DNA from: Bordetella genomosp. 5
GTDB taxonomy: Bacteria; Pseudomonadota; Gammaproteobacteria; Burkholderiales; Burkholderiaceae_B
Length of the DNA: 64,000 bases
Reading direction: 5' to 3'
NCBI RefSeq assembly: GCF_002261475.1
Contig: NZ_NEVN01000001.1
Location: 682,001 to 746,000 of the forward strand
Shown: in pieces, positions 16,903 through 36,384 of the stretch
Position numbering within the stretch: the stretch's first letter is position 1
Layout of the letters: each line of letters begins with the position of its first letter
The notes under the pieces: generated by a model
What the model saw: the letters and a program-made list of their open reading frames with translations, nothing else
What the model was told of the DNA's origin: nothing
Databases searched by the model: none
Made by a program: the position numbers and the translations under genes

Positions 16903-16992
16903 GGTAACGTCCGCGCGTCACGCGTAACGTCCACGCGTCACGCGTCACGCGTCACGCGTAACACGCGCGCGTCACGCGTAGCGTTCGCCCGC
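16903..16992. repeat. Degenerate short tandem repeats (GCGTCACGC/GCGTAACGTCC)
   Basis: About 90 bp built of GCGTCACGC and GCGTAACGTCC variants in tandem, right against the left end of the island 1 repeat. The right-hand copy of the island repeat is preceded by the single element GCGCGCGTCACG (27295-27306), suggesting this array expanded at the left junction only. Confidence 0.75.
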
Positions 16993-17109
16993 CACGATTT
17001 TTTCACGGCTCGGCCCCTTTCATCGCTGCTCGATGGAGCAGGGCGGGATGCTGGATTCGCTTGAACCGACATGCTCCCGATTCGTGCTTGTCGTCCAGGG
17101 AATCTATGT
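16993..17109. repeat. Island 1 left direct repeat (117 bp)
   Basis: Aligns without gaps to 27302-27418, with 9 mismatches over 117 bp by eye. It ends on an ATG (17106) that corresponds to the start codon of the glycosyltransferase gene in the right copy, including the CAGGGA ribosome-binding region. The left copy is therefore a detached duplicate of that gene's 5' region. Confidence 0.92.
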
Positions 17110-17589: not shown

Positions 17590-17829
17590 ATGCAGAGCCG
17601 GCACGTTTCGAAAACCGAGTTCAAGGCGCGCGCGCTTGAGCTATTCCGCCAGGTCGAAGCAACGGGGGAGTCCATTGTGGTGACCGACCATGGCAAGCCT
17701 GCGCTCGAAATCCGGCCCTATCGGGAGGCGGCGAAGCGTAATCCGCTCGATGTGCTGCGCGGCTCTGTCCTCCGCTTCGATGATCCCCTGTCGCCGGTGG
17801 GCGACGATGCATGGGAGGCAGCGCAGTGA
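17590..17829 (+). CDS. Phd/YefM-family antitoxin
   Basis: A protein of 79 residues. The N-terminal Phd/YefM fold is seen in VSKTEFKARALELFRQVEAT and ESIVVTDHGKPALEIRPYRE, followed by an acidic C-terminal toxin-binding tail. It would neutralise the PIN toxin encoded next and bind the upstream palindrome. The ATG at 17590 has GAAGGGG upstream; an in-frame ATG at 17569 is possible but falls on an operator half site. Its stop overlaps the toxin start (GTGA). Confidence 0.88.
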   Translation: MQSRHVSKTEFKARALELFRQVEATGESIVVTDHGKPALEIRPYREAAKRNPLDVLRGSVLRFDDPLSPVGDDAWEAAQ

Positions 17830-18221
17830 TCGCGTTGGACACGCATGTGCTGGTGTGGTGGGCGGCAGGTGACGAGCAATTGAGTCGTGCCGCGCGCGAA
17901 GCCATCGAGGCTGAGCTGCACGATGGAGAAATTCTGGTTTCGGCCATCAGCGCCTGGGAGATTGCCATGCTGGCCAAAACTGGCCGCTTGGCGTTGACAA
18001 TGGATGCCCAAGCCTGGTTGGACACCGTTGCCGAAGTCCCGGCGATTCGCTTTGTGCCGGTAGATGTGCGCACCTCCGTCCATTCTGTTGACCTGCCTGG
18101 AGAGTTTCACAAGGACCCGGCTGATCGCCTCATCGTGGCCGTGGCACGGCATCATTCGGTGCCGTTAGTCTCTGCCGACATGAAGATTCGCGATTACCCC
18201 CACGTACAGACCATCTGGTGA
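17826..18221 (+). CDS. vapC: VapC-family PIN-domain toxin ribonuclease
   Basis: A protein of 131 residues from a GTG at 17826 that overlaps the antitoxin stop codon. The PIN acidic residues are present: Asp in ALDTHVLVWWAAG, Glu in SAISAWEIAMLAKTGR, Asp in FHKDPADRLIVAVARHH and Asp in VSADMKIRDYP. VapC toxins cleave RNA (often tRNA or 23S rRNA) with Mg2+. The pairing with a Phd-type antitoxin is common. A hairpin terminator follows after 16 bp. It probably stabilises the island. Confidence 0.88.
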   Translation: MIALDTHVLVWWAAGDEQLSRAAREAIEAELHDGEILVSAISAWEIAMLAKTGRLALTMDAQAWLDTVAEVPAIRFVPVDVRTSVHSVDLPGEFHKDPADRLIVAVARHHSVPLVSADMKIRDYPHVQTIW

Positions 18222-18274: not shown

Positions 18275-19226
18275 AGTGTCGGCGGCGGCCTAATGCGGCG
18301 GGCGAATCGCGCCGGCTGCGCCGGCGGGGCCGTCGTTTGGACGTTGTGAGCGTCCGCCCGGACGCTCACCGGGTGCCCTCAAGCCCCGGCCGCGTACCCG
18401 CGCCCGTTCCGTTGAAGCCCCCACACGGGACGCATCCTTTGGGTGCGGTCATCTCCCTGATTTTTTGGTTTTTCCTTGCGGAGGGCGGTTTTCTTTTGTC
18501 TGACAACGAAAAGCGCTCCAAAACAGAAGCTCGCGTAAGTGCGGGCTTGTGCTGGCATCCTCGCTGTATACAAACGTCGGATTTTACGGACATTTGCGCT
18601 GCGACTGCCCGGCTTGTGACGGCTGGCTTACCCGTTGTGACGCCTGGTCTACACGTTGTCTATGCAACGTGACAGCTCGTCGACAAGCATATGGACTTCG
18701 CTCGTACATGAACTCTCGTCGCACCAGGATACGTGACATTTCAGGCAGCCGTCCGGTCGAGCCAAATGTGTAGCCGCGACCTCATCCGCAGTAGCGGCGG
18801 TGCCCCCCATCCGCGTGAGAAATTTCTCGCCGTCCTACGCCCGACGGCAAACTTCAGAGGCAAGGGCTTGTGTGGTAGACGAAGGCTGCTCATTAGTCCG
18901 TGCTCGAACCAACCGCCAGCAGCTTGGCACTGACGCGCCTCCACGTGTCGCGTCTCGTGAAAAAGCGGGTGTCTTATCCTGGCCGAGCCGCGACTTCGTG
19001 CGGCAGATTTCGACCCAATGCAGTCGTTCGAGCAGCTCCTAGCAGTTTCTGCTGTGAAGTGACTGCTCCATCGCTTTTGCAAGCCGAGGTCACACTAACT
19101 CGCTCGGTGCGGTATTTTGGTTTCGCTATTCTTATGATGGTATAAACGGTGCACTTCATCGGCTCAGGGTGTGTCTGCTGTGTCGCAATTTACCTGCGCC
19201 CGTACGGACCAATGGGAGGATTCGCT
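18275..19226. other. About 950 bp without a recognisable gene
   Basis: Mixed-composition DNA with short open frames on both strands, none with family-like sequence. A hairpin GAGCGTCCG / CGGACGCTC lies near 18348-18367. The stretch just before 19227 becomes A+T-rich and likely carries the promoter of the next two genes. It may be debris from island rearrangement. Confidence 0.5.
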
Positions 19227-19520
19227 ATGACATTTATGAAAGGCCTGGACGATCTGCAGAGAACTTTAGCGGATGCGCAGAAAGCGCTTGAGACAGTAAG
19301 CGGCGAGCTCGGAACTTTGTCCTTTAACCCAGAGGATCCAGAGAGCGTCGAGGCGGCGATTGCTAAGTCCGAACGGTTGGTTGATGAACGACTGGGCGAA
19401 TACGCGAACAACTCGATCGTCGGTCCGCTGATAGTTCAGATGAAGGATTCGTTCAGGACTGCCGTGATCGAGAAGGCAGCCGAGGCGCGGCTGAAGGGAG
19501 AAGCGTCAGATGGCGAATAG
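19227..19520 (+). CDS. Hypothetical small acidic helical protein (island 1)
   Basis: A protein of 97 residues that is acidic and almost wholly helical in appearance (GLDDLQRTLADAQKALETVS; PESVEAAIAKSERLVDERLG). The start at 19227 follows GGGAGGA at good spacing. It ends inside the start of the next gene (11-nt overlap), so the two are translationally coupled. No family is recognised. A partner or chaperone role for the 262-residue protein is only a guess from the overlap. Confidence 0.7.
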   Translation: MTFMKGLDDLQRTLADAQKALETVSGELGTLSFNPEDPESVEAAIAKSERLVDERLGEYANNSIVGPLIVQMKDSFRTAVIEKAAEARLKGEASDGE

Positions 19521-20298
19521 AGAGGTCCTGTTTAAACGGATCAACAATGCCCTGTTCGATATGCAAGCGGCGACGTCGCAGACCTTTGGACAGCATTTCC
19601 TGACCTTTGCCCGACTTCTTGCGGATTCGTCACTACAGGACTTCAATCAAAAGCTGACAGTCAATCTGGATGTGGAACGTTTCTTGGAAGCCAGTTCTAG
19701 GTCACAAGGCAGCATGGTGGGTTCCGCTCGTCTCGCATGGCCTGAAAGCGCGGACGATGTGCTGGGGCTGCAGTGGCTACTGGTTCAAAAGTTCGCGCGT
19801 GAACCGGGAGGGTTGTTAGATTTTGCGCACACATACTACACTGTGGGGCGCAACCTCACTGGTGAGCTGCATAGCCTCACACGTCAGTTACTTATCCCGT
19901 TTGCCCGCGACTACAAGGACTACGTGATGGCCATGGAGCAATCGCATGTGGCAGCTTCCGTGAGCAGCACCGGAGACAGCATCGGAAGCGCCCCAGCACA
20001 AATCACTTACCACATCAATGGAAATAACGTTCGCGTCAACAATCACTCAGTCGACAAATCGACGAATATCATAAACGTCGGCGCTGACTTTCGCGAATAC
20101 ATCGACGGCCTACGCCAAGTCATTCAGAGCCTGACTGATGCCCAACAAAAGCAGGGAGCGATGGAAATTGTCAATGCTGTAGAAGCGCAGCTTGCATCGC
20201 CGAAGCCCAGCAAGACGGTGGTATCAACTTTGTTGAATGCATTGCCTCACGTGGCAAGCATTGCCACGCTAGCATCCGCGATTATCTCAGGACTCTAA
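19510..20298 (+). CDS. Hypothetical protein with polar HINGNNVRVNN strand motif (island 1)
   Basis: A protein of 262 residues. Residues 1-150 are helical (LFDMQAATSQTFGQHFLTFA; LLIPFARDYKDYVMAMEQ). Residues about 167-190 carry TYHINGNNVRVNNHSVDKST, a polar beta motif that I remember in the C-terminal parts of AbiT-like and other abortive-infection-associated proteins, though I cannot confirm it here. The C-terminal 25 residues are hydrophobic (ALPHVASIATLASAIISGL) and could insert in a membrane. It is coupled to the preceding 97-residue gene. A helical sensor plus a membrane-active tail would fit a defence effector, but this is inference. Confidence 0.7.
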   Translation: MANREVLFKRINNALFDMQAATSQTFGQHFLTFARLLADSSLQDFNQKLTVNLDVERFLEASSRSQGSMVGSARLAWPESADDVLGLQWLLVQKFAREPGGLLDFAHTYYTVGRNLTGELHSLTRQLLIPFARDYKDYVMAMEQSHVAASVSSTGDSIGSAPAQITYHINGNNVRVNNHSVDKSTNIINVGADFREYIDGLRQVIQSLTDAQQKQGAMEIVNAVEAQLASPKPSKTVVSTLLNALPHVASIATLASAIISGL

Positions 20299-20596: not shown

Positions 20597-21067
20597 TTAG
20601 ACTTCACACTCTGCCCGGGTATGGAGAACTTCTTGTCTTGATTCATCGGAGGGCGGCTGCAGTAGTTTCCAATTGTCTTCATGAGACCGTACCCGCGAGT
20701 TCATGGCCTTCTGACTCATCGTTAGAGTTCGCTTGCCGCCGGACCTCTTCTCATTTGAAGCGGAAAGGAGCGCATCAAGCTCCGCGTGCTCGAAGACAAA
20801 AAATCGGCTTCGCGGATTTTTCCTATCGAGCAGCACGACAATAAGGTAGTCGAAGCCCCCTGAGAAATTCCCGTTAACTGCTTGTTGTTTCGGCCAATCG
20901 ATGGTTTTGACTTGAACACGCCTTGTGCTTTCGTTCGTGACGATCACCACATCCCAGCCCTTCTGCGTTTCGCCGTGCGCTAAATAAGCTTCAATGTTCC
21001 TTTTCAGAAGTTCGCCAAGAACGAGGTGTTCACCAATGGCGGCGGAGATCGAGCGGTTACTATTCAT
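20597..21067 (-). CDS. PD-(D/E)XK-like nuclease fold protein (island 1)
   Basis: A protein of 156 residues. Residues 7-60 give a compact E...D...QxK pattern: Glu13 in SAAIGEHLVLGELLKR, Asp39 in KGWDVVIVTN and Gln52-Val-Lys54 in RRVQVKTID, followed by a FDYLIVVLLDR strand and RFFVFEH. This is the arrangement of small PD-(D/E)XK proteins. The Ser/Arg-rich C terminus is unlike a catalytic core. It is last in the leftward gene set, separated by 228 bp from the NYN gene, so it may have its own promoter. No strong Shine-Dalgarno was seen. Confidence 0.65.
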   Translation of the reverse strand: MNSNRSISAAIGEHLVLGELLKRNIEAYLAHGETQKGWDVVIVTNESTRRVQVKTIDWPKQQAVNGNFSGGFDYLIVVLLDRKNPRSRFFVFEHAELDALLSASNEKRSGGKRTLTMSQKAMNSRVRSHEDNWKLLQPPSDESRQEVLHTRAECEV

Positions 21068-21295
21068 TGGGCTAAGAGGTTAAGGCAGAAATGCGCTGCG
21101 TCATGAAGATCAGTCAACAACTTCGCAGCGTCTGGGTGGACGGCCGCTCCTAGGAGCTCTGTTTGACGAGGCGACGGACCGCTGTCGACCCAGAGCGGAC
21201 GCTGGGCGCCACTCGCAAAAGCGGTTATTGAGCGGAAGAGGCATTAACAAGTGATGCTTCCGGCCTATAGCTGTCGTTCGTGCCGAGCGGCTGCT

Positions 21296-22534
21296 TCAGG
21301 CCGCAGCTGTATCCGCTCCCAGTTCGATTGGCGCCGCTATGCGCAGATCGTAGATGCGCACCATTTTTCCGACAATTTCGTGCCGCAACACTCGTTCTTC
21401 CTTGATCGCAGACTTTTCAGGAAACTCTGCAAACCGATCATTGCTGAGAATAAACGTGGAAGGATCCTCACCAGCAACGTCCAAGATAAGTTCATCGGCT
21501 TTGCGCTTGCTTGCAACGGTGTGCACCCGGGTAGCCTCCGGAAAGGCAGCAACAATATCTTTGTCGTTTAACTTCAGCTTGCGGCGGATGCTGGCATCAA
21601 AAATGAGCGTCACCGTGTAATCTTCGGCGAGAATGGGGATGATCGCTTTTAGCGGGGCCAGACCAACGAGCTCCTTCCCCTCGTAGCACAGGTTGCTGCC
21701 GTCGATGACGATGTTCCGAACATCTCGGCTGGCGATTTTGACAAGTTCGGCTATCCGAGCGCGAAGCTTCTCAATGTTGGCATCAACACGACGTAGGGCT
21801 TTGCGGCTCTCCTGCATGACTGCCCCTGGACTCTCGTCTCCCAATGAACTGCCGCATTCTAAATGTATCTGCCGCTTTTCATAGCCGTTCGAGGCTTTGT
21901 TGAGTTTTCTATCGAAGATCTCCGCGAGATCGATCCGGGTCAGCAGCCGGGCGCGCTGCGCGTCTTCGTCGTACAACCTTAGCTGTGGCTCCTTTAGTGT
22001 CTTGTCCAATTTTTCGCTGCGATGACGTAAGGCGGTCAACTGAGGGGCAATCCGATCCAAGGTTGCTTGAAGCGCGGCGATTGCCGACTGCGCAAGCAAG
22101 GGGTCGAAGATGCGCGCCCTTTCAATCTCATCTTGGATCGCGCGGCCGTCTTCGACTGCCTGCGAGATGACCGTTTCCAAACGCGCAGCCGACTTCTGCC
22201 CTTCGGCCAGCTTTTGTTGCATGGAGGCGAGTTGCCTCTTTGCGACGGCACGTTGCGATGAGAACCAGTGGCGCGGGTCGATTCCCATGCCTGCCTCTGC
22301 CTCCAGGCGGTGCACCGATGTCTCCAGGTCGCCAATGTCTTGGCGCATGAGTCCGAGGCGCGCTTGGCTTTCTTCTTTCATTCGTTGGGCGCGCATAAGC
22401 TCGCTACTGGCACATTCGAGGTCGACGCCCGTGAACCAAGAGAGCTCTGTCTTCCAGCGACCCAATTCGTCCCTGGCTGCCTCATAGTTACGCTCTAGCG
22501 CTACGATTTCTGCGATAAATGGATTGCTATTCAT
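21296..22534 (-). CDS. Coiled-coil protein with C-terminal NYN/PIN ribonuclease domain (Zc3h12a-like)
   Basis: A protein of 412 residues. Residues 1-265 are mostly long coiled coil (charged heptads, no Cys/His cluster). Residues 272-400 form a NYN/PIN-like nuclease: Asp278 and Asn281 in NIVIDGSNLCYEG, Asp313 in TLIFDASIRRKL, Asp347 in ASKRKADELILD and Asp366 in TFILSNDRFAEF. These are the four acidic positions expected for Mg2+-dependent cleavage in Zc3h12a/Regnase-type domains. The coiled coil may oligomerise the nuclease or sense a partner. It lies downstream of a YaaW-like gene and a 37-codon membrane-peptide gene. Confidence 0.75.
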   Translation of the reverse strand: MNSNPFIAEIVALERNYEAARDELGRWKTELSWFTGVDLECASSELMRAQRMKEESQARLGLMRQDIGDLETSVHRLEAEAGMGIDPRHWFSSQRAVAKRQLASMQQKLAEGQKSAARLETVISQAVEDGRAIQDEIERARIFDPLLAQSAIAALQATLDRIAPQLTALRHRSEKLDKTLKEPQLRLYDEDAQRARLLTRIDLAEIFDRKLNKASNGYEKRQIHLECGSSLGDESPGAVMQESRKALRRVDANIEKLRARIAELVKIASRDVRNIVIDGSNLCYEGKELVGLAPLKAIIPILAEDYTVTLIFDASIRRKLKLNDKDIVAAFPEATRVHTVASKRKADELILDVAGEDPSTFILSNDRFAEFPEKSAIKEERVLRHEIVGKMVRIYDLRIAAPIELGADTAAA

Positions 22535-22604
22535 TATTTTCTAAAGATTCTAGTGGGGAATGTGCCGCCGTATATCGGTACTTCAGGCTGAGACGTCCGC
22601 GTCG

Positions 22605-22718
22605 TTAGTTACTGACGTTCTGATCTTCAAAACTCTGGTGTGCCAGCAAAGCACCTATTGCCATTGCAATCGCGTAGGAAGCAAAAACGCGCAGAGGTGT
22701 AGAGACGATGATCAACAT
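22605..22718 (-). CDS. 37-residue single-span membrane peptide (candidate gene)
   Basis: ATG at 22718 with AGGA nine bases upstream, 16 bp after the stop of the YaaW-like gene and on the same strand. The product is MLIIVSTPLRVFASYAIAMA followed by IGALLAHQSFEDQNVSN: one hydrophobic span of about 25 residues and a short polar tail. Good ribosome-binding spacing and operon position argue that it is translated. It could be a membrane partner or a toxic peptide of the operon. No homologue is recognised. Confidence 0.55.
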   Translation of the reverse strand: MLIIVSTPLRVFASYAIAMAIGALLAHQSFEDQNVSN

Positions 22719-22734
22719 GATGTGCGTTCCTGTC

Positions 22735-23571
22735 TCAGTTTTCTTGAGTGAGGGCCAGGTGCTGTTGGGTGAGGGGGCTGCCACATTCGCCGCAGAACTT
22801 CTTGCCGATTTGGACAGTTGCCGAGCAGGTCGGACAACTGCGATATGCGTCCTTTTGGCGCATGTAGGCGATTTGAACAACGCAGGGCACCGTCACGCGG
22901 TAAGCCGGGCTGCCAAGATCGAACAAGGTCCAGATCGCGGTGATCGCCCAGCCGATCGGCCCGGCGAATACGCTGATACCGCGCATTAACCCGGCTGTGG
23001 CACCGAAGGCTAACCCTCGTCCTAGAATGGCCTTGGCAATGGCGTTGGCCACCACTGCTGCAAGCTTGAAGGCGCCGAAGCCGGAGGCCTTGATCGCAGC
23101 CTGTAGTGCCGCCATCACTGCTGGGCCGGCGCCTGGGACGTAGGTGCCACCGAATTCGGCGAACAGACGCTCTTTGTCCTGTTCGCTCATTTTGTCCAGC
23201 GACTGCTCCAGTATTGCCTCCAGGATGGCGATTTCAATCTGTGCGCAATCACTCTTGGACGAGTACCGGGCCCCGACATGACTCGCCACGTCGCAGAGCA
23301 CTTCCTTGTAAGGTACGCCAGCGCCGCCTCGCATCAGATTAAAAAGCGAGTTGCCGCCAAAACGCTGTAGTTCTTCAGCTATTAAGGCTCGGCAAGCGTC
23401 GTCCACGTGTCCTGCCGATTTCGCGTCGACGAGCTTCTTGCTCGCTGCCGATGACAGCGAGATACGTCCTTCACCCTTGTCTGTAATGTGATCAATCAGT
23501 ACGGCGAGGTCGTCGACGTCGGCGCCGTCCAGCACCTGCGCGAGATCTGGATCGGATATTAGGGAAGTCAT
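22735..23571 (-). CDS. YaaW/UPF0174-like protein with C-terminal zinc ribbon
   Basis: A protein of 278 residues. Residues 1-130 resemble E. coli YaaW (DLAVLIDHITDKGEGRISLS; RALIAEELQRFGGNSLFNLM; YKEVLCDVASHVGARY). A hydrophobic Ala/Gly-rich middle (about 150-215) is followed by the YaaW end motif SPAYRVTVPCVVQIAYMR (221-238). Beyond the usual end of YaaW there is an added zinc ribbon with Cys246, Cys249, Cys260 and Cys263 (SCPTC...FCGECG). YaaW function is not known. The hydrophobic middle suggests membrane association. It is encoded 25 bp after the HTH gene and 16 bp before the small membrane peptide. Confidence 0.75.
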   Translation of the reverse strand: MTSLISDPDLAQVLDGADVDDLAVLIDHITDKGEGRISLSSAASKKLVDAKSAGHVDDACRALIAEELQRFGGNSLFNLMRGGAGVPYKEVLCDVASHVGARYSSKSDCAQIEIAILEAILEQSLDKMSEQDKERLFAEFGGTYVPGAGPAVMAALQAAIKASGFGAFKLAAVVANAIAKAILGRGLAFGATAGLMRGISVFAGPIGWAITAIWTLFDLGSPAYRVTVPCVVQIAYMRQKDAYRSCPTCSATVQIGKKFCGECGSPLTQQHLALTQEN

Positions 23572-23596
23572 AAGAGAGGTCCGAATTGTCTAGGAG

Positions 23597-24220
23597 TTAA
23601 GTTGACTCGCTGGGATTGAACGGCGTCATTTCGTTGGCCAGAGCTGCCGACAGCGCAGTCAGGTCAGCAAACTGTCGACGATCTCCTCGCGCTGCCGGCT
23701 GGGCGAGCGCGGCCATCACAAGGCCGGTTCTGCGCCGCCGCTCGTTGCGGGCGTCGAGGCGCTGAATTTCCTGGGCGTCATAGGCCGCGCCAAGAGGAGG
23801 GTATTCAGGATGGACCTTGCAGCGTTTCAGAACCGATTCCGCCAACGCCGGCCCGCCGAGAGAGTCGGTTACTAGGCCGTGCGCAGCGGTCCGGTAGTCC
23901 GACAGGGCAGCAATGGCCTTTATCAGATCGCGCCAATCGTCAGGTGTCATCAGAAGGAACGCCAGTGGCACTCCCATCGTCTCTGCCAGCTTTTGGAGAG
24001 TCGACAGGTCCGGGTTACGTTGGATCGAATCGGTCATATCAAGGAGCGGTTTGAGTGTGGTCCGTGACATACCCGTGCGACGCATGACATCGATCTGACG
24101 AAGCTTGCTCGGCTTGCCATCACGATCAGGCCCGGCGACGCGGAGCGCCGCCGTAACGCTGAGAGCGAGTTGTTGCTTCGGTGTGTATTTCAGACCATCG
24201 AATGGCGGAGGTGCGGTCAT
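23597..24220 (-). CDS. HTH (Cro/C1-like) regulator heading the island 1 leftward operon
   Basis: A protein of 207 residues. Residues about 40-95 form a lambda-repressor-type HTH (LRQIDVMRRTGMSRTTLKPL, then STLQKLAETMGVPLAFLL). The C-terminal half is helical and unrecognised. It is the first gene of the leftward set, 25 bp before the YaaW-like gene, so it is likely an autoregulator of the operon. The 358 bp upstream (24221-24578) contain no gene I can support and should hold the promoter. Confidence 0.8.
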   Translation of the reverse strand: MTAPPPFDGLKYTPKQQLALSVTAALRVAGPDRDGKPSKLRQIDVMRRTGMSRTTLKPLLDMTDSIQRNPDLSTLQKLAETMGVPLAFLLMTPDDWRDLIKAIAALSDYRTAAHGLVTDSLGGPALAESVLKRCKVHPEYPPLGAAYDAQEIQRLDARNERRRRTGLVMAALAQPAARGDRRQFADLTALSAALANEMTPFNPSEST

Positions 24221-24578: not shown

Positions 24579-25181
24579 CTATCGCACGCTTGATAGAACC
24601 GGAGAATCCGACCGTATCTGCGATCGAAGGCACTGTTGGTGCACCCCATTTGATATTGGAATAGCACGTTCGAGTAATTTCGAGTTTTCTTTATCGCCCT
24701 CGATCACCACCAGCTTGTCCTCACGTTGCACGCGACGAAAGCGGGCATTGTTCAGGTGCGATGAGATGGCTGGTGGCCACGGAAGGTCTGCGCTCATTGC
24801 ATGAACAGCATCGACTGCGAACTAGTCGATTACACAGCATATACCTGTTGCGATGCCATCCCCCTGGAATCCCGCATAGAAAACAAGATAGTCGCCACGA
24901 TTCAGGGTTAATAGTTGGGAGCGCTTTGGATGACTAGGCTCCCCATAGCTGTAGGTGACAAACTCCGGATCATGGTGAGCCGGCGCATCCAGGCCAATGG
25001 CTTGCGGGAGGAGGCCTCCCCGGCGCGATGGAATGTCGCCGAATCTAAGGGCATTGTGTACTGGCGCCCTTTCTGGAATGTGTACGTACTCAAAGCTGAG
25101 ATCGCTTTCAAGGGGCGATAGCCGACCGCCGCATCCACGGTCGATTCCTACGCGCAGGAAGAGAATTTTCGCTTCTGGCAT
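24579..25181 (-). pseudogene. Nmad3-like protein gene interrupted by an in-frame TAG
   Basis: From ATG 25181 the frame reads KILFLRVGIDRGCGGRLSP, HDPEFVTYSYGEPSHPKRSQ and LNRGDYLVFYAGFQ, stops at TAG (24822-24824), then continues in the same frame with LPWPPAISSHLNNARFRRV and KLVVIEGDKENSKLLERAIP to 24579. Together about 200 codons look like one nucleotide-modification-associated domain 3 (Nmad3) protein, a family linked by others to hypermodified DNA. The assignment is from memory. The single amber codon makes it a recent pseudogene, unless it is a sequencing error or suppressed. Confidence 0.6.
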
Positions 25182-25670
25182 TTTGTTGAGAGGCGCTTTG
25201 GAGCACAATTAAACTGCTTCGTCTCGATTTTTCCTTTACCAAGCGCCGGCGAAGGGGGCGCGTCATGCGCAAGATGCAGGATAGCCATTAGTTCCGCATA
25301 CAAATCTTCGAACACGCTGTCAGATGTGATGATGCGTCGATGTTTCAAGCATATGCCTATACAGCAAAGGGTAGTTCAACTGAAGCAAGGGGCCGCGCTC
25401 GTTGAGCAGAATGAAATGCTCAAAAGCCCATATCGCGTGACCATTGCGAATGGCGCCGTACGCTTTCCTGCCTATCCCAATCCAATTCACTTTCTTCGCT
25501 ATTCCTTCGTCGCCAGGCAAAGTGCTTGCTCCTCCAATACCAATTACGTGGTTGAAGTTCCAGTCTCGTACCGATCCCATGCAGTTATTGCATCCAAAGA
25601 GGCCACTTTCGTTGGGATCACCCGTATGGGTTCTTTTGTAAATGAGAATTCTTGGTCTACTCTCGGGCAT
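25148..25670 (-). pseudogene. Nmad-associated-type gene with a frameshift
   Basis: From ATG 25670 (upstream GAGACAAAG) the frame reads RPRILIYKRTHTGDPNESGL, FGCNNCMGSVRDWNFNHVIG and KVNWIGIGRKAYG, and ends at 25320. An overlapping frame shifted by one base (25348-25148) continues with SDSVFEDLYAELMAILHLAH. The YKRTHTGDP...CMG...VIGIGG type is one I remember next to Nmad3 genes, here directly downstream on the same strand. I read the two frames as one gene of roughly 170 codons broken near 25320-25350. The 240 bp upstream, to the TraI fragment, hold no supported gene. Confidence 0.5.
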
Positions 25671-25912: not shown

Positions 25913-27300
25913 CTACGTTGTGGAGATTTCCATGGCAGCTGGCGCCTTTTGAGAACGCCACGGGCGGCTGGCTTCCAATCCGATGTCCAAGGCCGCAGTT
26001 TTTTCTTCGAGCCGATCTACAACGCCCGCCAACTCAGTGGCGTCGTTCGTGAAGATCTCCGTCTGGTGACGGGCGCGAGAGATCGCCACGTAGTAGACGT
26101 CCCGCTGCGTGGTCCGGCTGAAGCTCTCCGCGTTGATGAGTGCGCGATCGCACGTGAGCCCTTGGGCGCTATGACTGGTCGTGGCATATGCGCGATCCAG
26201 GTGTAGCGGGCCAGTGGCAGCGTCCAGCGTGAGCCGGCGGCCGCCGCCACCGATGGTGACGGTCGTGGGGGCTACCTCCAGCACCTCGAATCGGCCACCG
26301 TTGACCAGGTCCAGCTTGGCGTTGTTCCGGGTCACTCGCACCCAGTCGCCTGCAGACAGCTCCGCCGGGACTGGCTCGTATACGGAAAGCTTGGCAGCAC
26401 GTGCAGGATTGAACTGTGTGCGTTCCCCGGTTACGACGTGTTCCACGACCAGATCATTGGGCTTATCGGGCGCTGTGCCGATGACGCGGTACATCTCGGT
26501 CTGGCGTAGTTTGCCGGTCTTGTAGTCGCGCTCGGGTTGGAGGATGTCGCCGGCGCTGTAGTACTTCGCGACCCGCCGTTCCGCCTGTGTCGTGTCGCGA
26601 CGGGTAAGCAGACTGAAGTCGAATCCACGGCCGGACAGGCCCAGCGCCTGGTGCGTTGCTTCGTTCAGTGCCTTGCGCGAATCGTTCGTGCCGGTGACGT
26701 TCAGCGTTTCACGCCTCTCATCCGCTTCGAGGTTGGCGTACTTGGAAGCGATGGCGTCGTAGCGGGCGCCGTTGTCGTCGATGGAGTGGACGGCCTTGAG
26801 CTTTCCATCCAGCAAGGCGAGAAATGCGGATGCGTGGCCCGCCGCGGCAAGTTCTACGGCAGCTTTCAGTTCTGGCGACTTCTGACGGATGATGTCTCCC
26901 ATAAGCGAGGTCTCCATGCCGGCTGCCTGCAACTGGTGAAAGGTTCGGCCCGCTTCAATCGCCTTGGTCTGGCCCCTGTCGCCGAGCACCACACGGGCAC
27001 CGTCCACCTCGGCCATTTTCATCAGGCGTTCCATGATCCGGGCAGGGACCACGCCGCCTCGTCGATGACGAGAACCGTCTTCTCGTCCAACTTGAAGCGG
27101 TTCTTCTGGCGCGCTTCGAGGACGGAGGGCGCTGCACGAGCCTCCATGTTCAGCTCTCGTAGCGCCTCGATCTGCTTGCCATACGACGCGACCGCCTGAA
27201 CGCGATAACCGGCCGCCTCTGCCGCCTCCTTGACCTGCGCCAGCATGTGAGACTTCCCACTGCAGGCCAATCTCTGGACGCCGACAAAGCGATGCGCGCG
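25913..27300 (-). pseudogene. traI: TraI (MobF relaxase) helicase-domain fragment, truncated and frameshifted
   Basis: Two frames combine. 27300-27050 gives FVGVQRLACSGKSHMLAQVK (Walker A) and KTVLVIDEA (Walker B). After a frameshift near 27050, VPARIMERLMKMAEVDGARV and VVLGDRGQTKAIEAG follow, down to helicase motif VI-type sequence (YATTSHSAQGLTCDRALINA; QRDVYYVAISRARHQ). This is the RecD-like helicase of MobF conjugative relaxases. The whole relaxase domain is absent because the sequence stops exactly at the right island repeat. It cannot start conjugation. Confidence 0.85.
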
Positions 27301-27301
27301 T

Positions 27302-27418
27302 CACGATTTTTTCACGGCTTGGTCCCTATCATCGCTGCTCGATGGAGCAGGGCGGAATAGTGGATTCGCTTGAACCGACATGCTCCGGATTCGTGCGTGT
27401 CGTCCAGGGAGTCTATGT
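27302..27418. repeat. Island 1 right direct repeat (117 bp)
   Basis: The counterpart of 16993-17109 (9 mismatches, no gaps). This copy is in its working context: it carries the CAGGGAG ribosome-binding site and start codon of the glycosyltransferase gene at 27415 and so is the original chromosomal side of the junction. Confidence 0.92.
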
Positions 27419-29081: not shown

Positions 29082-29160
29082 GGTGATGCGCGGTCGCGAT
29101 GGTGAAGACGACCAGGCGGACGAGTAAGCGCAGACGCGCACAATCGACCGGCGGCCGAGC

Positions 29161-29545
29161 GACCGGCGACCAGCGACCAGCGGCCAGCGACCAGCGGCCA
29201 GCGACCATCGACCAGCGACCAGCGACCGCCGACCGGCGACCATCGACCATCGACCATCGACCGGCGACCAGCGACCATCGACCAGCGACCAGCGACCAGC
29301 GACCATCGACCGGCGACCGGCGACCGGCGACCGGCGTCCGGCGACCGGCGACCAGCGACCAGCGATCAGCGACCGGCGACCATCGACCGGCGACCGGCGA
29401 CCATCGACCGGCGACCGGCGACCATCGACCGGCGACCGGCGATCAGCGACCGGCGACCAGCGATCAGCGACCGGCGACCATCGACCATCGACCAGCGACC
29501 AGCGACTAGCGACTAGCGACTAGCGGCCAGCGACCAGCGACCGAG
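29161..29545. repeat. 55-copy 7-bp tandem array (consensus GACCRKC)
   Basis: Exactly 385 bp in perfect 7-bp phase. The units are mainly GACCGGC, GACCAGC and GACCATC, with rare GATCAGC, GACTAGC, GGCCAGC, GACCGCC, GTCCGGC and a final GACCGAG. A 21-bp higher-order unit (GACCGGC GACCGGC GACCATC) repeats in the middle. It lies in the convergent spacer between the FecR-like gene and ridA. All six frames are open through much of it, so the apparent ORFs there are artefacts. Confidence 0.97.
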
Positions 29546-35059: not shown

Positions 35060-35135
35060 GGGCTGTTAGCTCAGTTGGTAGAGCAGCGGACTCTTAATCC
35101 GTAGGTCGAGTGTTCGAGCCACTCACAGCCCACCA
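35060..35135 (+). tRNA. tRNA-Lys(CUU), integration site of island 2
   Basis: A 76-nt cloverleaf. Acceptor GGGCTGT pairs with ACAGCCC, the anticodon stem-loop is GCGGA-CTCTTAA-TCCGT (anticodon CTT), the T arm is GAGTG-TTCGAGC-CACTC, and CCA is encoded. Its 3' half from the anticodon loop onward is repeated at 42952, marking it as the attB of an integrated element. The gene was left intact by the insertion. Confidence 0.97.
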
Positions 35136-35141
35136 GAATTC
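35091..35141. repeat. attL of island 2 (51 bp)
   Basis: Identical to 42952-43002 except for one base (A versus G in the CCA end region). It starts at the anticodon loop of tRNA-Lys(CUU) and ends in GAATTC beyond the gene. Confidence 0.95.
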
Positions 35142-35303
35142 ATTGTGGTTGAAAATCAAGCACTTGCGCATAGGCGCCAGTGCTTTTTTTTCGTCCATTT
35201 CCGGGGCTGGTAGTGTCAAAAACTGGCCTTTGCCGGGATTTTGCCGGAACGGAAGAATGCCAACCTATGCGATCGCTAAACCTATCGCATGGAGTCTTCT
35301 GGC

Positions 35304-36384
35304 ATGGCATACATCAGTCAGCGTGGCGAGTACTGGCGCGCAGAGGTCCGCAAGCGCGGATACAAACCCGTCTATCACACCTTCGACACCAAACAGCAGG
35401 CCCAGCAGTGGGCGCGCCGCATCGAGGTCGAGATGGATGCGGGATCGTTCATAGACCGCACGGAAGCCGAGCGTACGACCTTGGCGGAGGCGCTGCGGCG
35501 CTATCAGAAAGAAATCGTCCCAGAGAAGCGACACCCCTATCAAGAGGGGCGGCGCATCGCGCGGTGGTTGGATAACGACTTGTCTTGTCGCACGCTGGCC
35601 ACGCTGAGGGGGGGGGGCGGACTTTGCTCGCTATCGGGATGACCGCCGGGCCGCTGGCCGGGCGGAAAACACGATACGCCTTGAGCTGCAGGTCATCCGT
35701 CATCTCTACGAGATAGCACGCAAGGAGTGGGGCATGGAAGGCTTGTTGAACCCGCTCGACAATATCCGCAAACCTTCGGGCAGTAAGGCGCGGGACCGGC
35801 GTTTGCGGCCTGGGGAGTTTGAGACGTTGAAGGCTTTGCTCATGGCAAGCCGCAATCCTTGGGCAGCACCCGCTTTTGAGTTGGCTATCGAAACCAGTCT
35901 GCGCCAAGGTGCGCTTTTCAGCCTTCGATGGGAATGGGTAGACCTGAAAAGCCGGGTCGTTCGTTTTCCTGTGGAGGCGCGAGGCGCTGACAACAAGGGC
36001 GTCCCGGCTGTGCTGCCGTTATCACTGCGAGCGGTAGACGTGCTTCGTCATCTGGCGGCAATTTTTGAGGGTGGGGATGCGCGGCTAGACCGCGCAGGGA
36101 ATGGTCCGCCAGATGTGCTGTACGACCTGTAAGGTCCAGTGCTTGCCACGAGTGTGAATGCTGAGATTTGTGTTTGGAAGCGGACCCTCCAGGCTGCTGG
36201 GAAAAATGATCTGGCTTTCCTGACGCTTCGATGGCATGACCTTCGTCATGAAGCAGCGTCACGACTCTTTGAGAAGGGCCTGCATCCCATGGGGGTGGCT
36301 GCCATTACCGGGCATCGAAGCATGCAGATGCTGAAACGCTATACGCACCTGAACCCCGAAAATTTGCTGGCCAAGCTCGGCTAA
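35304..36384 (+). pseudogene. int: Tyrosine integrase, broken by a G10 frameshift and an in-frame TAA
   Basis: From ATG 35304 (MAYISQRGEYWRAEVRK) the frame gives an N-terminal Arm/SAM-like domain. At the G10 run (35608-35617) it shifts, and the next frame reads NTIRLELQVIRHLYEIARKE, IETSLRQGALFSLRWEWVDL (catalytic Arg region). It then meets TAA at 36130-36132 and continues in the same frame with [19 protein letters not shown] and [20 protein letters not shown], which hold HxLRH, the GH and the Tyr nucleophile. All active-site residues remain encoded; two lesions separate them. Nine Gs instead of ten would restore the first join. Confidence 0.88.
35608..35617 (+). repeat. G10 homopolymer in the integrase gene
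   Basis: Ten consecutive Gs at the exact place where the integrase reading frame changes. It may be a slippage-prone mutation or an assembly artefact. Confidence 0.9.

Follow-up and report, generated by a model that had tools for sequence, protein, structure and literature searches.

A conserved four-gene operon of Bordetella genomosp. 5 joins a JukA-type phage sensor to a membrane micropeptide and a predicted NYN ribonuclease

We analysed a 64,000-nucleotide stretch (hereafter the window) of the 5.2 Mb genome of Bordetella genomosp. 5 (contig NZ_NEVN01000001.1, positions 682,001 to 746,000 of the forward strand). The window carries a compact operon in which a gene assigned by profile to JukA, the sensor of the Juk (jumbo phage killer) system, stands with genes for a helix-turn-helix (HTH) protein, a one-helix micropeptide and a coiled-coil NYN protein predicted to be a ribonuclease (RNase). 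An initial annotation had described five closely spaced genes at this place as a candidate defence operon. All five open reading frames (ORFs) were recovered on the minus strand where it had placed them:

23597-24220, minus strand: HTH regulator, 207 aa; ORF, first gene of the core operon
22735-23571, minus strand: JukA (YaaW/DUF3944), sensor-type with C-terminal zinc ribbon, 278 aa; ORF and PADLOC profile
22605-22718, minus strand: micropeptide with one hydrophobic helix and an N-terminal STPL motif, 37 aa; ORF
21296-22534, minus strand: coiled-coil NYN protein, predicted RNase and candidate effector, 412 aa; ORF and PF11977
20597-21067, minus strand: PD-(D/E)XK-like gene, 156 aa; ORF with a weak profile match

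The spacing given earlier was reproduced as well, with gaps of 25 bp (HTH/JukA), 16 bp (JukA/micropeptide), 70 bp (micropeptide/NYN) and 228 bp (NYN/PD-(D/E)XK-like). A scan for promoters and terminators gave nothing better than shuffled sequences did.

The protein initially called YaaW-like matches two PADLOC profiles of JukA (PDLC04113, E=4.9e-62; PDLC04111, E=8.1e-62), and by this measure the gene is JukA. The named Juk system thus shares the sensor of the operon, and the earlier remark that no named defence system with this combination was known is in this respect incomplete. The C-terminal half of JukA is hydrophobic, which suggests membrane contact. Its zinc ribbon is visible as a CxxC...CxxC pattern, with Pfam matches below cutoff (best E=3.4e-4). 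When solved structures were searched by sequence, JukA was matched over the zinc ribbon only; its predicted structure is of low confidence (71.5), and a fold search with that model gave nothing informative.

The NYN protein consists of helices (residues 6-268) followed by the NYN domain (about 271-398). The domain scores 30.6 bits against PF11977, above the curated cutoff of 23 (the orthologue in a Pseudomonas locus, L029, reaches 20.5 bits, below it), and its predicted structure resembles Regnase/KHNYN nucleases. D278, D313, D347 and D366 do not vary among the 23 NYN proteins aligned, and the window protein has the acidic catalytic residues and, as modelled, the PIN-like fold of Zc3h12a-like NYN RNases. 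The initial prediction of a nuclease is thereby upheld and specified as Regnase type. In Regnase/KHNYN proteins the NYN domain is accompanied by KH or CCCH domains; the window protein is bacterial, has a long antiparallel coiled coil in their place, and its RNase role is predicted. By sequence, the search of solved structures gave one insignificant match (E=0.88), and with an NYN profile all of the 60 matches listed fell on the coiled-coil part. Matches to JetC of Wadjet and LmuB of Lamassu (E 0.006-0.77) reflect weak coiled-coil similarity only, in a protein that lacks the ATPase head, and kinship with these systems was rejected.

To see how far this arrangement is conserved, we scanned the genome_contigs collection (84,980 species) with a pattern from the NYN alignment and searched the window proteins by tblastn in the 22 resulting loci. 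HTH, JukA and NYN genes are contiguous, in the same order and on the same strand, in nine of the 22: Achromobacter anxifer (84/93/68% identity to the window for HTH/JukA/NYN), Comamonas suwonensis, two Variovorax (the HTH gene of one being cut by a contig end), Hydrogenophaga, Stenotrophomonas, a Chromatium metagenome-assembled genome and two Pseudomonas. In L028 JukA lies about 3 kb from NYN on the opposite strand, with transposase-like ORFs (judged by eye) between them, and the fetched flanks of the other 12 loci held no JukA match. The search was repeated from the JukA side in the genus of L029, Pseudomonas, where 72 of 298 genomes have a JukA-like match. Thirty of these loci were fetched with 1.5-kb flanks, including that of L029's own genome. 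The nine whose JukA is at least 53% identical to that of the window all have the HTH gene upstream, and eight have NYN downstream; within 1.5 kb of the remaining 21, no NYN was found. From the NYN side, the L029 protein matched in 11 of the 298 genomes. Eight matches, the query itself included, are at least 39% identical, all adjoin JukA and are the same eight operons; the other three are weak, partial (25-30%) and located elsewhere. Counting each once, we obtained 17 NYN operons (the window, the nine contiguous loci and seven more Pseudomonas), and in all of them NYN, the putative effector gene, lies 3' of JukA, in line with the Juk pattern of JukA beside an effector.

Gene phylogenies are consistent with this linkage. 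On a JukA tree of 38 rows, presence of an adjacent NYN requires three changes, compared with a mean of 12.8 after shuffling (none of 500 shuffles was as low). In the NYN tree (31 rows), 16 of the 17 linked proteins form one group with support 94/94, below the starred level, and L022 falls outside at an open fork. Across the 17 operons, distances between JukA proteins correlate with those between NYN proteins (rho 0.84; none of 2000 permutations as high). The core thus recurs contiguously across genera, which bears out the co-occurrence that the initial annotation had named as its check and agrees with its view of a single conserved operon that most probably serves in defence against phages.

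The two smaller features of the operon are also conserved. In 14 of the 17 operons (not in L020, L021 or L045) an ORF for a hydrophobic single-helix peptide separates JukA from NYN; such an ORF is found 3' of JukA also in L047 and L072, where NYN is absent. M1, P8 and L9 are invariant in an alignment of eight micropeptides. Synonymous exceeded non-synonymous change in the three pairs tested (one-sided Fisher p=1.3e-4 for the window against L016, 6.4e-4 and 5e-6), and dN/dS ranged from 0.15 to 0.43 over five pairs. The 37-residue peptide proposed earlier is accordingly a real gene, kept under purifying selection. The zinc-ribbon cysteine pattern is present in 16 of the 17 NYN-linked JukA proteins (not L021) and in six JukA without an adjacent NYN (L007, L028, L047, L051, L052, L053); the ribbon is therefore not exclusive to NYN operons. 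The HTH gene scores under cutoff (HTH_3, E=2.3e-4, 21.6 bits against 23), and an orthologue lies 5' of JukA in the nine contiguous loci (truncated in L019, where the contig stops) and in the nine closest Pseudomonas loci. Between the window and L016, dN/dS is 0.08 for JukA, 0.15 for HTH, 0.19 for the micropeptide and 0.24 for NYN; in the compared pairs all four genes show purifying selection, as the initial annotation had supposed from their preservation. We also observed an HTH-JukA pair with no obvious effector amid head and portal genes on a phage-like plasmid of Escherichia marmotae (L015, 4345-5573).

The PD-(D/E)XK-like gene (PDDEXK_5, E=0.014, 15.8 bits against a cutoff of 26.1) was originally counted as part of the same unit. 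It had no match in the 22 NYN loci, in 94 loci other than its own or on any plasmid, and was rejected as a fifth member, not having been seen with the others in any locus examined. Conservation extends to four genes, those for HTH, zinc-ribbon JukA, the micropeptide and coiled-coil NYN.

The position of NYN was examined through L072 (Pseudomonas genome G524, the same place as L047), where an HTH gene is followed by zinc-ribbon JukA, the micropeptide, another JukA (JukA2; PDLC04111, E=1.8e-100), JukB (PDLC04114, E=1.7e-7) and then a group of further genes described below as the cassette. Sister operons of L072 hold NYN where L072 has JukA2-JukB, and NYN therefore most likely fills the effector slot; this one genome provides the strongest hint. 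No JukB match was found among seven window genes scanned at E up to 1, and a whole-genome search of the window genome likewise found none, control queries giving none either. The slot of NYN is filled in a third way in an enterobacterial plasmid cassette (L101, 3215-12454), whose genes code for a WYL regulator, a JukA fusion of 404 aa, a 528-aa protein, radical SAM, PHP, PRTase-like and glycosyltransferase-like proteins; the 528-aa protein, inspected by eye, is a candidate HNH-like protein.

Part of the family carries additional genes. Using L074 proteins as tblastn queries, we found radical SAM, PHP and PRTase-like genes (the cassette) 3' of NYN in eight of the 17 operons (L017 Comamonas, L018 Variovorax and Pseudomonas L073, L074, L075, L077, L078 and L079) and 3' of JukB in L072. 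A glycosyltransferase-like gene comes next in eight of these nine loci (not L018), and a convergent GT9-like gene is present in seven (not L017 or L018). The available flanks, some of them short, of the window, L016, L019, L020, L021, L022, L029, L030 and L076 held no cassette gene. In L074, radical SAM (PF04055, E=2.7e-7) and PHP (E=6e-26) domains were matched, and three assignments are below cutoff: PRTase_3 (E=9.3e-5; the L017 copy has no PRTase_3 match), Caps_synth (E=8.2e-5) and heptosyltransferase II (E=4.4e-11). Viperin was rejected as the identity of the radical-SAM gene, having given only weak matches. The PRTase-like gene is strong in six of 296 Pseudomonas genomes, in all six within about 5 kb of a window-type JukA, with one further weak partial match (G348). 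Among 300 genomes of the window's order, its own included, it gave one weak match, and none in the window genome; a distant DNA search in E. coli genomes returned nothing. Three plasmid records carry the gene, each with JukA about 4 kb upstream. One of them, Raoultella plasmid NZ_CP114775.1, has the order WYL regulator, JukA fusion, 528-aa protein, radical SAM, PHP, PRTase-like, hypothetical and GT9, the hypothetical gene matching the glycosyltransferase-like gene of L074.

Known defence genes lie near several of these operons. Druantia III genes (DruH and the start of DruE) adjoin L072, HmaC lies near L030 and a type IIG enzyme adjoins L020; among the ten flank proteins of that scan, four match such genes strongly, one matches PbeA weakly and five have no match. 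More broadly, 70 flank proteins chosen by eye from 111 at 16 of the 17 loci matched 105 PADLOC families at E<=1e-10, many on the same protein, compared with five families for 70 random proteins from 17 control regions in six of the same genomes. This enrichment is supportive only, the flank set not being random.

Around the operon, GC falls to 0.52-0.60 over 19-26 kb, compared with about 0.67 in the surroundings. A 124-bp direct repeat (16986-17109 and 27295-27418, 91% identical) encloses about 10 kb, its right copy ending near the start of a GT9 glycosyltransferase gene. This gene was not matched by the L074 GT9-like gene at E<=1e-5, though GT9-like genes end the cassette in Pseudomonas and on one plasmid. 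The description of intact genes in a decaying island holds in part: among the neighbours are a partial, apparently truncated Nmad3 domain associated with nucleotide modification (24822-25208, minus; profile positions 1-116 of 247, E=1.1e-16) and a helicase-like piece (25913-27304, minus; AAA_30 covering only profile positions 99-181 of 191, and a weak UvrD_C_2). The latter is perhaps a fragment of a conjugative relaxase, which fits a decayed mobile element. Among the window genome and 60 relatives, the NYN protein was matched in the window genome only; the operon is therefore a sporadic trait, probably acquired.

Other features were noted nearby. A gene pair on the plus strand (19149-19520 and 19510-20298) adjoins the operon; the second product matches the candidate defence family PDC-M14B (E=2.9e-8), and the first has no PADLOC match. 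A VapC-like PIN-domain protein (PF01850, E=3.3e-18) is encoded at 17811-18221 (plus), and an ORF of near-tandem RPATSD-like short repeats at 29099-29509 (plus) is probably a low-complexity sequence, not a conserved protein. At 35060-36132, tRNA-Lys(ctt) precedes integrase-like fragments scattered over several frames (PF00589, weak); with the low GC extending to 43 kb, this is probably a second, separate island. Outside the operons, a scan of viral contigs gave no NYN match, and phage records gave none for NYN and two for JukA. Two NYN genes without JukA (L024, 7078-7983; L023, 3500-3988) lie beside glycine-rich hydrophobic proteins that are related to each other (BLASTP E=3e-7) and have no PADLOC match; NYN may pair with other membrane-inserting partners. 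Hydrophobic proteins matching the candidate defence family PDC-M09A are encoded in L014 (5710-6183, E=1.1e-13) and L036 (6966-7430, E=1.1e-9), one adjoining a plasmid JukA and the other near an NYN gene without JukA.

We consider it fairly probable that the four genes constitute a horizontally spread Juk-type anti-phage operon with an RNase effector. JukA is assigned by profile, the gene order recurs, micropeptide and NYN are conserved with JukA, and NYN occupies the JukA-JukB position of one sister operon; the proposed chain from sensor through adaptor to RNase draws on Juk biology as given in PMC13282480. JukA would detect an early phage structure where the DNA enters, in PhiKZ-like phages the early infection vesicle, with the zinc ribbon and the one-helix micropeptide serving as adaptor or membrane partner. 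The activated complex would recruit the NYN protein through its long helical hairpins, and the Regnase/KHNYN-like domain would cut RNA at the entry site; its targets would be early transcripts of the phage or, in an abortive response, RNA of the host. Expression of the operon would be under the control of the HTH protein. In some genomes the radical-SAM/PHP/PRTase-like/glycosyltransferase pathway would be added, and the window version would work without it. Like Juk (JukAB), the operon has a sensor of the JukA family beside an effector gene, and PMC13282480 describes JukA effectors as varied, naming phospholipases and transcriptional regulators. The window operon differs from Juk in having no JukB and, instead, a coiled-coil NYN, a zinc ribbon on JukA, a micropeptide and an HTH protein. 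A literature search whose reach did not include the primary Juk paper returned no work linking JukA or Juk to NYN, nor, within the texts it covered, any describing a radical-SAM/PHP cassette in defence.

The same genes could be read with the weapon placed elsewhere. If the micropeptide were a small pore that kills, NYN would be an accessory limiting phage or host RNA. JukB, the known effector, forms pores according to PMC13282480, the micropeptide persists 3' of JukA even where NYN is missing (L047/L072), and in L005, on a short contig, HTH and a JukA whose tail resembles a zinc ribbon are accompanied by a small membrane protein but by no NYN. Yet three of the 17 operons (L020, L021, L045) dispense with the micropeptide and retain NYN, and a single helix of 20 residues is little to build a pore from; we think this account unlikely. 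Still less probable is a toxin-antitoxin or stress operon, with an HTH repressor and an RNase toxin stabilising a mobile island and any phage effect incidental. Such loci are resembled by the HTH-RNase pairing and the island location, and NYN genes without adjacent JukA occur on Pseudomonas plasmids, but the best-conserved gene is JukA, of a family with an experimentally known immune sensor, and neither the JukA2-JukB swap nor the defence neighbourhoods would be expected of an addiction module.

The cassette raises two further readings. It might itself be the true partner, a surface-glycan or nucleotide-modifying trait whose locus the Juk genes guard or regulate, as the constant company of JukA at the strong PRTase-like genes of Pseudomonas and in the three plasmid records would allow; nine of the 17 NYN operons, the window included, lack cassette genes in the available flank and the window genome has no PRTase-like match, and we hold this to be very improbable. 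More broadly, and tentatively, the operons could represent a distinct Juk branch of Beta- and Gammaproteobacteria, in which a core of JukA with zinc ribbon and micropeptide is combined with interchangeable effectors (the Regnase-like NYN RNase, JukA2-JukB or, with another JukA, the 528-aa protein of enterobacterial plasmids) and often coupled to the radical-SAM/PHP/PRTase-like/glycosyltransferase pathway, whose product may be a modified nucleotide or glycan with a role in immunity.

At first glance this locus would be annotated as a YaaW gene with hypothetical neighbours. Our results support a conserved operon of Juk type that includes an RNase-like effector and a micropeptide, a component easily missed. 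As PMC13282480 sets out, Juk belongs to the small number of immune systems known to be effective against giant phages that form a nucleus, JukA alone protects in some cases, and these phages keep their DNA out of reach of DNA-targeting restriction and CRISPR-Cas, whereas their transcripts are still reachable by RNA-targeting systems. A JukA sensor with an RNase would attack precisely what nucleus-forming phages cannot hide. The swap at the effector slot is a natural experiment in how one sensor drives different weapons, and the cassette in eight of the 17 NYN operons raises a possible link between Juk and small-molecule or glycan chemistry. If true, a distinct Juk branch of this kind would give bacteria an equivalent of the RNA decay brought about by KHNYN and ZAP, acting at the place of viral entry.

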